From a virus: DNA of 35,034 nucleotides. The notes below the pieces were generated by a model. It ran no database searches, was not told the DNA's origin, and saw only the letters and a program-made list of their open reading frames with translations. Where the stretch lies: positions 1-35,034 of the IMG/VR virus record IMGVR_UViG_3300023301_000043. One strand, written 5' to 3'. A program made the translations under genes and the position numbers. Shown piece after piece: positions 12,465 to 26,893 of the stretch (the stretch's first letter is position 1; each line of letters begins with the position of its first letter).

Positions 12465-12908
12465 TTATATGCTACTTGTTAACACATTTAACTGTTTTAA
12501 TAGTACTTTAAATTCTGATATGTTTTTGATAGTTCCGTCAAACAGACAATTATTGATAGCTTCAAAATAATTTAAATCCTCTTTATAAACTTCCAATTTA
12601 TTAAAACTATAATTATATTTTAAAACATATTCAAAAAATGAATCTTTTTTATAGCTGAAAATATCTACATTGTTTTTAATTAATCTACCTCCTGTATGAA
12701 CAAACCCTAGACTTTCTATATCTTCTTTATCAAGATACTTTATTCTGTAATGCCCTGGATATTTAATAAAAGTAGATGTTAAGTCACCCTGATTAAAAAC
12801 TTTTTTAGTCCAGTTAGTAATGTACCAATCACTATTTACTGAAGCTACTTCATATTTAAACCCTATATGCAGATCTTTAGATTCTGGAGTGTAATATTTG
12901 TCTTCCAT
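12465..12908 (-). CDS. Hypothetical protein, first gene of the replication operon (147 aa)
   Basis: Unknown function. Rich in Tyr, Asn and Lys with a beta-rich first half (GFKYEVASVNSDWYITNW, HYRIKYLDKED) and a helical second half. It is the promoter-proximal gene of the long leftward block: a TTG - 20 bases - TATATTTG promoter lies immediately upstream, and the helicase starts 22 bases after it ends. First genes in early phage operons often encode host-takeover factors; that is general expectation only. Confidence 0.65.
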   Translation of the reverse strand: MEDKYYTPESKDLHIGFKYEVASVNSDWYITNWTKKVFNQGDLTSTFIKYPGHYRIKYLDKEDIESLGFVHTGGRLIKNNVDIFSYKKDSFFEYVLKYNYSFNKLEVYKEDLNYFEAINNCLFDGTIKNISEFKVLLKQLNVLTSSI

Positions 12909-12927: not shown

Positions 12928-12958
12928 CAAATATACTGATAATCAATATACTGTGCAA
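12928..12958 (-). promoter_or_regulatory. Leftward promoter of the replication operon
   Basis: Read leftward: TTG (12958-12956), 20 bases, TATATTTG (12935-12928), 20 bases before the ATG at 12908. The flank AAAAAGCTTGCACAGTA matches the SSB-like gene promoter almost base for base. Confidence 0.75.
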
Positions 12959-12959
12959 G

Positions 12960-13624
12960 CTTTTTAACATTTAATTACCCCCTAAAAAATTGGATTGGCT
13001 TTGGGCAAAACTGCTACCCTACTGCCGTAGAATCTAAAACCCATTTGCATGTAGGTACCTACGTTCGAGTAAAAGACCGTTTCTTTATCTCTCCGAAAGA
13101 CTAAACTGAAATACATCACACTGTACCATTCTGAGTATACATTAAAAATGAAAAATTACTGTTTAGTAAACTGAGGTACGAAGTTTACAGTATCCAAAGA
13201 CTTTCTTTGGTCGCCGTTTAGGCGAAATTCGTAATTTTTGTTATTTTTTAAATTTTTCGGGCAAGTGTTTAATTTGGATGTTGGGGATAACCCCTTGCAA
13301 AAAATCGTAAGTAGCTGATTTAGTGCATTTTAGCTATTTTCTAGCTAGTTTTAAAAACAGTTTTAAATATCAATCGTCTTAGATAAAAGCTTTTACACCT
13401 TTAAAATTGACCCTACAGTTATCGTAATTCCCATTACGGACTGAAGAAGGCTCTTTAAACCTTTAGGGATACCCTATATACTGTTTTCTTTTGTGTACAG
13501 ATTGCGCCCTAAGACTTCAAACCTCCCCGTTATGTTTCCTTATTATTGCAAAGGCACAGTTATTAAACCTGTTCAAAGCCACCCCTATTCCGTTACGATG
13601 ATTAGTGGCCTGGATAAAACACTC
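12960..13624 (-). other. Hairpin-rich noncoding region, possible long leader or structured RNA
   Basis: About 660 bases without a credible gene. Perfect or near-perfect inverted repeats (plus coordinates): CTAC/GTAG near 13020-13031; 13041-13070 GTAGGTACCTAC; 13163-13190 TACTGT..AAACT/AGTTT..ACAGTA; CCAAAG/CTTTGG at 13194-13210; CGCC/GGCG at 13212-13224; ATTTTT..GCAAG/CTTGC..AAAAAT at about 13251-13313 enclosing GGGG/CCCC; TTTAAAA/TTTTAAA near 13350; CAGT + CGTAAT/ATTACG near 13416-13445; TAGGG/CCCTA near 13464-13476; GCCAC/GTGGC near 13578-13609. Read leftward, the CGTAAT hairpin has a GGGA loop, a GNRA tetraloop. The only good promoter feeding it is leftward (13742-13773), hence the strand. 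A replication origin is the main alternative. Confidence 0.45.
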
Positions 13625-13680
13625 AAAAACAAAAAACCCTTGGGGATGAAGAGTGTCGCTAGACAAGTTTCCCAAGGGTT
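13625..13680 (-). terminator. Intrinsic terminator of the candidate small RNA
   Basis: Perfect 10-bp stem AACCCTTGGG / CCCAAGGGTT with a 26-base loop, followed on the leftward strand by TTTTGTTTTT. On the rightward strand no T run follows, so the orientation is clear. Confidence 0.65.
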
Positions 13681-13735
13681 GCACTTCTTTTCAGAAGTTA
13701 ATACTTTACAGTAAATGACTAGCATGGACAAATCT
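13625..13735 (-). ncRNA. Candidate phage small RNA with its own promoter and terminator
   Basis: A transcript of about 110 nt is predicted from three signals read leftward: promoter TTTG - 20 bases - TATCTTTG (13773-13742) giving a start near 13735; a hairpin ACTTCT-GAAA-AGAAGT (13698-13683) closed by a GNRA tetraloop; and an intrinsic terminator with a perfect 10-bp stem AACCCTTGGG / CCCAAGGGTT (13680-13671 with 13644-13635) followed by TTTTGTTTTT. Inside the terminator loop TGTC-TAGC-GACA can form a further small stem. It does not match any RNA family I know (not tRNA, tmRNA, 6S or RNase P RNA). A 46-codon ORF overlaps it but runs through the terminator. Its existence is inferred from signals, its function is unknown. 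Confidence 0.5.
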
Positions 13736-13741
13736 TCGAGG

Positions 13742-13773
13742 CAAAGATAAGTAAAAAGAATGTATCCTCCAAA
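13742..13773 (-). promoter_or_regulatory. Leftward promoter of the noncoding region
   Basis: TTTG (13773-13770), exactly 20 bases, TATCTTTG (13749-13742), read leftward. This is a full match to the -33/-7 pair with the same spacing as the other strong promoters here, yet no protein gene begins behind it for about 800 bases. Confidence 0.7.
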
Positions 13774-13872: not shown

Positions 13873-14124
13873 TTACATTAAGTGATAATCGTCATCTAGT
13901 ATGTTAGCCATTTTAGGCTTGTGTTCAAATGACAATTTTAAAAACTCGGTTATCATTTCTGCTATTACTTCAGTAGAAAAACCGTTCATTCTTTTTTGGT
14001 AAAAGAAAAATAGTAGGTCTCTAAAGTAATCTTCATTTTCGTCAATATACTTGTTGGATGCAACTTCTTGTGGAACCAGCATCCAAATATCTTCTGTAAA
14101 TTCGTGAATATTGTAATCAATCAT
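13873..14124 (-). CDS. Hypothetical acidic protein (83 aa), isolated transcription unit
   Basis: Unknown acidic helical protein. The longer reading from the ATG at 14151 is rejected because the promoter -7 box TATTTTTG (14148-14141) overlaps that ATG; the expected RNA start is near 14134, so the first usable start is ATG at 14124. That leaves a leader of about 10 bases. The gene has its own promoter and its own terminator and sits between the two arms of the genome. Monocistronic placement next to the divergent promoter region would suit an early regulator, but no DNA-binding motif is visible. Confidence 0.6.
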   Translation of the reverse strand: MIDYNIHEFTEDIWMLVPQEVASNKYIDENEDYFRDLLFFFYQKRMNGFSTEVIAEMITEFLKLSFEHKPKMANILDDDYHLM

Positions 14125-14140
14125 CTCTTTTGGTTTTATG

Positions 14141-14172
14141 CAAAAATACATAAATAGATTATATCTAGCAAA
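14141..14172 (-). promoter_or_regulatory. Leftward promoter of the 83-aa gene
   Basis: Read leftward: TTTG (14172-14169), 20 bases, TATTTTTG (14148-14141). The -33 box is part of the palindrome CAAATTTG (14169-14176), the same element used at the portal-gene and 26983-gene promoters. Confidence 0.75.
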
Positions 14173-14212: not shown

Positions 14213-14244
14213 TTAGGAAGATAGTTTTATAATAGCTATATTTG
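14213..14244 (+). promoter_or_regulatory. Rightward promoter starting the right arm
   Basis: TTAG (14213-14216, one mismatch from TTTG), 20 bases, TATATTTG (14237-14244), 16 bases before the ATG at 14261. Together with the leftward promoter at 14141 it forms a divergent control region of about 100 bases. Confidence 0.65.
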
Positions 14245-14260
14245 CATAAAAGCAAAATAG

Positions 14261-14629
14261 ATGGCCAAACAATTCGGTATACCAGTTAAATATGAAAATA
14301 ATTTAGATTTAGCTAAAAAATTTGTTGATGTTTATCTTGCAGTAAATCCTCCAAAAAGTAATATGCATATAAGAGCAAGGGAAGCTTTAGCCTATTATTT
14401 AGTGTATGGATATGAAAGCAAGTCGGATATAAAAACTATGTTCTCAGACCAAATAGATGATGGATATATGAGATCAATAAAATCACTACTTAGAAAAAAC
14501 GGATACTTAATAAAAGATAAGTACAATCAACGTAAGGGGCATCTATCTGAAGAAATGATAGGATGTGCAAAACAGCTTTTTGAAAACAATCAAAGAATAT
14601 TTATAGTAGGATTCATAAAAGATGTATAA
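14261..14629 (+). CDS. Hypothetical protein, possible winged-helix fold (122 aa)
   Basis: First gene of the rightward arm. After a charged N-terminus, residues 40-95 contain a helix (AREALAYYLVYG), a second helix with SKSDIKTMF and a third (GYMRSIKSLLRKNGYL) followed by a basic beta-turn (IKDKYNQRKGHLS), a layout like a winged helix in which helix three would contact DNA. I do not recognise a family. Its position ahead of the terminase block would suit a packaging or late-gene regulator. It overlaps the next gene by 8 bases. Confidence 0.65.
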   Translation: MAKQFGIPVKYENNLDLAKKFVDVYLAVNPPKSNMHIRAREALAYYLVYGYESKSDIKTMFSDQIDDGYMRSIKSLLRKNGYLIKDKYNQRKGHLSEEMIGCAKQLFENNQRIFIVGFIKDV

Positions 14630-16502: not shown

Positions 16503-16533
16503 TTTGTAGATTAAGCTATATTCCGTATTTTTG
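16503..16533 (+). promoter_or_regulatory. Promoter of the terL gene
   Basis: TTTG (16503-16506), 19 bases, TATTTTTG (16526-16533), 17 bases before the ATG at 16550. Confidence 0.75.
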
Positions 16534-25183: not shown

Positions 25184-25224
25184 AAGATACCCACTCTCTC
25201 ATTTGCAGAAGTGGGTATTTTTGT
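25184..25224 (+). terminator. Intrinsic terminator of the capsid gene
   Basis: Stem ATACCCACT / AGTGGGTAT (25187-25195 with 25210-25218, extended by a G-U and two A-U pairs) with a 14-base loop, followed by TTTTTG. It ends 13 bases before the homing endonuclease start. Confidence 0.85.
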
Positions 25225-25237
25225 TTATATTTACGAC

Positions 25238-26893
25238 ATGAAAATTACAACAGAAAGTTTTATAAAAGAGTGTGCAGCAACCCACAAAGGTTTCTATACT
25301 TATGAAAATACAGTTTATACTACTGCCAAAAGCAATGTTGTGGTCAACTGTCCTATACATGGTGAATTTAAAACAATAGCTTTCAATCATAAAAAAGGTT
25401 CAGGGTGCCCTAAGTGTGGTGGGGTTAGAACTGCCAATGCAAAGTGTAGTAGTAATGAAAAATTTACAACAAAAGCTAAAAAAGTACACGGAGATACTTA
25501 TGACTATAGTAAAGTAAACTATCAAAATAGTGTCACTAAGGTAGAGATAATTTGTAAAGAGCACGGAAGCTTTTTCCAAGCACCATCAAACCATTTAGGA
25601 AAAAAAGGATGTCCAGAGTGCGGTAAAATAAATAGAGGTCTAAACTCTAGAGTAACTAAAAAGGACTTCAAAGAAAGAGCAAAAAAAGTACATGGTGAAT
25701 TATACGACTATACAAATTCAAATTATCAAACCTCAAATAAAAAAGTAGAAATTATTTGTAAAAAACATGGAAGTTTTTTTCAATCACCTTTTAATCATCT
25801 AACAGGAAGTGGTTGTAAAAAATGTTCAGAGGAAACACCTAAAAATTATTTAGAACATGGCCAATTTTTAGAGAAAGCAAAAGAAGTACATTCCAACCTT
25901 TATGATTATAAAGGTGCAGAGTATACTAAATCAAAAGACACAGTTGGTATAGTTTGTAAAAAACATGGATACTTCGAGCAAATGGCCAATGCACATTTAT
26001 CAGGTAAAGGGTGCCCTAAGTGTGGTCACTCTATTTCTAATAATGAATCTGAGATATACGAATTTTTAAAGGATAGTGGTCTAAAAGTAGAAGAGAGAAA
26101 CAGAAGTATAATAGCACCACAAGAGATAGACGTATTAGTAGCGGATAAAAAAATAGCAATAGAGTATAACGGTTTATATTTTCACTCGGACAAGTTTTTA
26201 AACAGTGACTATCACCTACTTAAAACAGAGTCTTGTGAAAGTAAAGGCTATCAACTTATACATATTTTTTCAGATGAATGGATAAGCAAGAAAGACATTG
26301 TAAAATCCAGGCTTTTAAATCTAGTAGGTGAGACCGAAAACAAAATATATGCTAGAAAATGCCATGTAAAACAAGTGCCTACAACAGAAGCAATGCTGTT
26401 CTTAGACAGTAACCACATACAAGGTAAGTTAGGGTCCAAAATTAAATTGGGTTTATATTATGAGGATAGGTTGGTTTCTATCATGACTTTTGGAGGGCTA
26501 AGAAAAAGCTTGGGTAGTAACAAAAAAGAAGGTCATTTTGAACTACTTAGATTTTGCAATGAAAAAAATACAACAGTTATAGGAGGAGCTTCAAAACTGT
26601 TTAAGCATTTCCTCAGAAACTTTGAAGTTAAAAATGTTGTATCTTACGCAGATAGAAGGTGGAGCATGGGAAATTTATACGAAAAGCTAGGATTTAGTTT
26701 AACATCTAAGACTAAACCGAACTATTTCTACACAAAAGGTCATTTTAGGGAGAATAGATTTAAGTATAGAAAGTCTGAGATAATAGTTAATGAAGAGGAT
26801 AAGGCAAAAACTGAAAAAGAAATAATGAAAGAAAGAGGTTACAATAGAGTTTACGACAGTGGTACATTAAAATATAGTTATGATAATAACTAA
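25238..26893 (+). CDS. Free-standing homing endonuclease, EDxHD/Vsr-like with zinc-knuckle repeats
   Basis: 551 aa from ATG 25238; the longer GTG start at 25211 lies in the capsid terminator hairpin. Residues 1-255 are four tandem repeats of about 60 residues built as F..KA..VHG..YDY...Y...K.V.I.C..HG.F.Q...HL.GKGCPKCG (DUF723-like), each with paired cysteines and histidines for a zinc knuckle that reads DNA. Residues about 263-330 form the nuclease: NESEIYEFL, EIDVLVADKKIAIEYN and YFHSD, the E...D...HxD pattern of EDxHD/Vsr-fold enzymes. The last 200 residues (SIMTFGG...GGASKLFKHFL...) are a phage-specific C-terminal domain found with such nucleases. It interrupts the structural operon and has no clear promoter. 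Expected to cut phage relatives lacking it. Confidence 0.8.
   Translation: MKITTESFIKECAATHKGFYTYENTVYTTAKSNVVVNCPIHGEFKTIAFNHKKGSGCPKCGGVRTANAKCSSNEKFTTKAKKVHGDTYDYSKVNYQNSVTKVEIICKEHGSFFQAPSNHLGKKGCPECGKINRGLNSRVTKKDFKERAKKVHGELYDYTNSNYQTSNKKVEIICKKHGSFFQSPFNHLTGSGCKKCSEETPKNYLEHGQFLEKAKEVHSNLYDYKGAEYTKSKDTVGIVCKKHGYFEQMANAHLSGKGCPKCGHSISNNESEIYEFLKDSGLKVEERNRSIIAPQEIDVLVADKKIAIEYNGLYFHSDKFLNSDYHLLKTESCESKGYQLIHIFSDEWISKKDIVKSRLLNLVGETENKIYARKCHVKQVPTTEAMLFLDSNHIQGKLGSKIKLGLYYEDRLVSIMTFGGLRKSLGSNKKEGHFELLRFCNEKNTTVIGGASKLFKHFLRNFEVKNVVSYADRRWSMGNLYEKLGFSLTSKTKPNYFYTKGHFRENRFKYRKSEIIVNEEDKAKTEKEIMKERGYNRVYDSGTLKYSYDNN

Follow-up and report, generated by a model that had tools for sequence, protein, structure and literature searches.

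The window, meaning the whole 35,034-nucleotide stretch of viral DNA that was analysed, carries on its minus strand a short promoter-to-terminator unit followed by a larger structured noncoding region (Table 1). The unit opens with a TTTG box (13773-13770) and TATCTTTG (13749-13742) separated by exactly 20 nt. The window has 14 boxes of this type, whereas dinucleotide shuffles give 2.7 ± 1.6; several of the others lie shortly 5' of start codons, at 16503, 19275 and 26924 on the plus strand and at 14172 and 5391 on the minus strand. With exact coordinates and a box count above that of shuffles, the leftward promoter motif described in an earlier sequence-only reading is borne out.

Behind the promoter stand a GAAA-capped 6-bp hairpin and a hairpin whose arms, AACCCTTGGG and CCCAAGGGTT, form 10 perfect pairs around a 26-nt loop; followed by TTTTTTGTTTTT, this stem has the make-up of an intrinsic terminator, a GC-rich stem and then a U run. 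Perfect terminators with 9-bp arms and a T run occur twice in the window, one of them at 13636 on the minus strand, versus 0.03 in shuffles, so the terminator described in the earlier reading is beyond chance. That reading also placed the GNRA loop on the leftward strand alone, and the opposite strand indeed reads TTTC. As it had further stated, the ORF list holds no credible gene over the unit; the overlapping ORFs have GTG or TTG starts and only 48-73 aa, and a coding role was rejected. The upstream gene (13873-14151, minus) is followed by its own terminator-like hairpin at ~13834-13801 and a separate promoter precedes the downstream gene, so the interval looks like a separate transcription unit. 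Near the upstream gene, 14237-14263 (+) resembles 14122-14148 (-) inverted, with 89% identity over 27 nt and 67% over 147 nt; this likeness upstream of divergent genes is probably shared promoter sequence.

Table 1. Features of the locus; positions are those of the window unless a record is named.
Feature	Position	Strand	Remarks
Promoter TTTG-N20-TATCTTTG	13742-13773	minus	Bacteroidota -33/-7 type
Module 1, predicted small RNA of ~110 nt	13630-13741	minus	z -2.1 on folding the 117-nt transcript; layout kept in relatives
Proposed pseudoknot, 5' strand	13713-13724	minus	swapped along with the loop in L005, complementarity kept
GAAA-capped 6-bp hairpin ACTTCT-GAAA-AGAAGT	13683-13698	minus	
Terminator hairpin	13635-13680	minus	10-bp stem, 13680-13671 / 13644-13635
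Proposed pseudoknot, loop segment	13657-13665	minus	complementary to the 5' strand
U-rich tail TTTTGTTTTT	13625-13634	minus	
Module 2, larger structured noncoding RNA including the core	13280-13612	minus	fold z -2.8, 0/100 shuffles
Conserved core matched by covariance model R1	13518-13586	minus	74.6 bits, E 2.7e-13; window in the training set
Inner helix, loop UGNAAUAAU (UGCAAUAAU in the window)	13538-13554	minus	both sides of all 4 pairs vary between members
Hairpin with compensatory changes relative to L005	13418-13439	minus	CCGTAA..TTACG (window) vs CCACGG..CGTG
AAGGGG motif	13283-13298	minus	probable 3' end of the large RNA, judged by eye
Separate promoter TTG-N..-TATATTTG of the downstream gene (ORF 12465-12908)	12928-12958	minus	
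phi4:1 promoter box TACGTTTG	NC_021788, locus ~91,620-92,200	plus	

Recurrence of the unit and a proposed pseudoknot

Promoter, hairpin and terminator recur together in four other elements, giving a sample of five for module 1: the window, its relative L005 (92% identity across 1.37 kb), the phages phi4:1/phi17:2, and two unrelated contigs, L023 (binned as Cryomorphaceae) and L034, the latter laid out as in the window. On the flanks of the unit L005 is 93-97% identical to the window, with identity falling to 68-78% across most of 13736-13637. The GAAA hairpin is present in L005 and, with a different stem sequence (AACATC-GAAA-GATGTT), in L023. phi4:1 and phi17:2 have the promoter, UCGCUGAG, a stem AAACCTACC/GGTAGGTTT, CUCAGCG in the loop and a T tail, all in a sequence that differs from that of the window.

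A feature missed in the earlier reading is that the 5' strand of the window unit shows partial complementarity to the terminator loop (UGCUAGUCA with UGUCUAGCG). In L005 both segments are replaced and are still complementary (UAAUAAGAGCGUU with AACACUCUUAUUG), and cross-pairings between window and L005 score far lower; the L023 counterpart is UUUUCGCAG with CUGCGAAAA. When all 5' strands were scored against all loops, the self-pairing total was the highest among 120 permutations. Compared with shuffles, complementarity gave p values of 0.010 (L005), 0.0055 (L023), 0.078 (phi4:1), 0.43 (window) and 0.39 (L034), alone falling short of significance in the last two, with a Fisher value of 0.0017 over the five; these values are indicative because the compared regions were delimited by the analyst. 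The joint swaps and the self-pairing statistics, mainly those from L005, L023 and phi4:1, suggest that the 5' strand and terminator loop form a conserved pseudoknot.

Such a pairing, kept despite sequence change, could hinder or outlast termination, in which case the terminator hairpin would be a domain in the structure of a single, uninterrupted large RNA and would not end transcription in the cell. We think this unlikely, given that a T run of 6-7 comes after the hairpin in each of the five elements, behind stems of unrelated sequence, as expected of terminators. Judged by these comparisons, the ~110-nt promoter-to-terminator unit is real and conserved.

A conserved, predicted core RNA downstream of the unit

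The larger RNA family next to the small unit, also missed in the earlier reading, is the more important object. The closest DNA match among annotated phages, to phi4:1 and phi17:2 (74.5% across 98 nt, window 13515-13612), lies just past the terminator. It overlaps a core of three nested helices with the loop UGNAAUAAU, whose members have in common GKUUARUAAYUGC, a 4-bp helix that varies in sequence and bears that loop, then AAACAUA and GCGGU. For the two inner helices (12 sequences) 96% of positions are paired, a fraction equalled in 0/500 shuffles and falling to ~30% when the partner is shifted by one column. In a hand-made alignment of 14 sequences, with the outer helix added by hand and a single inserted base removed from each of L045, L047 and L056, 98% of cells are paired (0/2000 shuffles match this fraction); 11 of the 14 core pairs change on both sides, G-U pairs included, and the middle helix opens with a nonstandard pair in 4 of the 14 sequences. 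Model R1 scored known members at 67-88 bits, versus 17.5 for the best non-member, and retrieved four members from outside its training set in Bacteroidota genomes (L045, L046, L047 and L083, 50-59 bits); L056, also outside the training set, was picked up with a looser pattern and has an R1 score of 37 bits. All five keep the helices with new pairs. The core thus appears, from its covariation, to be a strongly conserved RNA fold previously uncatalogued in Rfam 15. By eye, a helix just 5' of the core looks plausible, as does a long-range pairing with the 3' motif; both were left unclaimed because they had been chosen for complementarity, so that counting them would be circular.

The window copy lies between divergent transcription arms, where the conserved sequence might act as DNA, for example as a replication origin or protein-binding site. 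That reading is highly improbable, since the helices survive changes on both sides, the promoters are strand-oriented and the GNRA loops lie on the transcript strand. Beyond the core, an AAGGGG-like motif follows in L006, L012, L023, L034, L036 and L045-L047.

The order of promoter, module, terminator and core is identical in the five elements that have the terminated module, the larger structured RNA that contains the core following within ~50-130 nt of the unit in each. In L006, L035, L036 and L056 the core comes ~60-100 nt after the promoter and no terminator intervenes, which suggests that the window promoter also serves the core. Because the core follows, or the promoter abuts it, the simplest view of the unit is as the 5' module of a larger noncoding RNA gene. 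The sequence-only reading had proposed a discrete RNA of ~110 nt; its recurrence with changed sequences in four other elements upholds that unit, while the covarying core downstream and the promoters that run straight into a core elsewhere speak against an isolated small RNA.

Our preferred reading, to which we assign a probability of about 0.5, is that 13741 to ~13280 (minus) would be one noncoding RNA gene of ~460 nt, with one promoter and an internal terminator subject to read-through. RNA polymerase would initiate near 13738, and the first ~110 nt would fold into the GNRA hairpin and the terminator, the loop of which would pair back to the 5' strand. A fraction of transcripts would stop there as a small RNA; read-through would give the ~460-nt RNA containing the core, the putative functional heart and a free-standing structured RNA of phages and integrating elements, with a structural or regulatory role. 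The sequence itself shows the elements, their conservation and covariation, the common order and the lack of an Rfam match; that the gene is transcribed, that its transcripts partly terminate and partly read through, that the pseudoknot forms in solution and that the RNA has such a role are inferences. The identical order in five elements favours a single gene; an efficient terminator, which would halt most transcripts before the core, counts against it. More tentatively, the pseudoknotted small RNA, made by programmed termination, and the read-through core RNA from the same promoter could act together, for example in one complex, and would then represent a new class.

The strength of the terminator, with its perfect 10-bp stem and T run, and the many core members that lack module 1 would also fit an independent ~110-nt small RNA beside a separate large RNA gene, each with its own promoter and perhaps acting as partners. 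This alternative is somewhat doubtful, as the box scan of the window showed no promoter of the TTTG-N20 type between terminator and core and the promoter serves the core directly in other members.

Distribution and relation to known RNAs

Pattern scans and R1 located the core at ~19 distinct loci in viral contigs and bacterial genomes, a lower bound because the patterns demanded exact matches and the genomes were sampled. The carriers appear to be Bacteroidota phages and integrating elements that are only distantly related. Lightbulbvirus relatives carry it, and the terminase of the window phage is 45% identical to that of phi4:1. A crAss-like carrier of 96.7 kb (L035) has sequence in common with crAss-like phage cr116_1, and L036 was called crAss-like from gene order only; other phage contigs with the core are L012, L019-L022, L029-L031, L034 and L056. 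Integrating elements or their remnants carry the core 3' of glmS in two genomes (L046/L048 and L045/L050) and, in one genome, after a superoxide dismutase gene (L047/L049), the last encoding a 580-aa serine recombinase. A 146-kb relative (L008) has no copy of the core, and blastn searches with other members turned up no additional annotated phages carrying the RNA. Pattern matches L013, L024-L028, L032 and L037-L041, as well as all new matches of the looser pattern except L056, were dismissed as chance occurrences in view of their sequence context and model scores.

The window, phi4:1 and L006 each have a helicase gene downstream, as would be expected of a cis-regulatory leader of an early helicase operon. 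We rejected this as very unlikely: in the window a promoter of its own precedes the downstream gene, and the next gene in other members varies (among others NUMOD4-HNH, GIY-YIG and one for an uncharacterised protein of 1091 aa), a pattern at odds with the leader of any single gene. Endonuclease ORFs of the NUMOD4-HNH or GIY-YIG kind directly after the core RNA occupy 6752-7117 in L022 and 5977-6303 in L023. The window also has a 560-aa HNH/homing-endonuclease-like ORF amid virion genes (25211-26893, plus).

In type III toxin-antitoxin systems the antitoxin is a small RNA with a pseudoknot, and the terminator behind it could permit read-through. The unit resembles these in its proposed pseudoknot and in a terminator open to possible read-through, but an RNA rather than a toxin gene lies behind the terminator; tandem unit repeats were absent on reading the sequence, and the ORF list shows no credibly sized ORF immediately downstream. 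HEARO and intron RNAs associate with homing endonucleases, and an HNH or GIY-YIG endonuclease gene likewise follows some copies of the core; unlike in those systems, no split gene was seen and most copies lack an adjoining endonuclease gene. The Rfam models for group I introns, group II introns and HEARO were unmatched in the window and 13 other loci. Over the same loci, cmscan against Rfam 15 at gathering and permissive thresholds gave no family match, in agreement with the earlier statement that no known family fits; the permissive thresholds yielded, tRNAs aside, low-scoring chance matches only. PADLOC gave no match for the window ORFs flanking the RNA, and an association with defence was rejected. 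No description of the RNA was found in the literature covered, which was incomplete and excluded supplements of large motif catalogues (e.g., PMC8040213).

ROOL and GOLLD, which are large structured RNAs found in phages as well as prophages, have no known function and often lie near tRNA genes (PMC12286853), are the nearest known kind, yet the RNA described here does not match their Rfam models and, by those models, is not a member. It shares with them a long, structured, noncoding nature and residence on phages and mobile elements. The phi4:1 copy adjoins a tRNA cluster (23 annotated tRNA features), sitting between it and the helicase gene in a stretch where the annotated ORFs are two small hypothetical ones only; L035 has two tRNA genes within 5 kb, and the window and most other copies have none near. 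It differs in its conserved motifs, its shorter length (about 300-460 nt) and the terminated leader module of some members. A further trait of ROOL and GOLLD is the formation of RNA-only oligomeric cages. ROOL and GOLLD are still unexplained, and the core adds another phage RNA family with strong covariation, spanning cultured Cellulophaga phages (phi4:1 and phi17:2), crAss-like phages and integrating elements beside glmS. Its terminated, apparently pseudoknotted leader is unusual and would yield two RNAs per promoter. Both phi4:1 and its host, Cellulophaga baltica, are in culture, so expression and deletion are directly testable.

Farther left in the window, a third ORF-free stretch (13060-13260, minus) is mostly 97-100% identical to L005 and has small hairpins and a 12-nt palindrome, GTAGGTACCTAC, at 13051-13062; its fold z is only -0.7.
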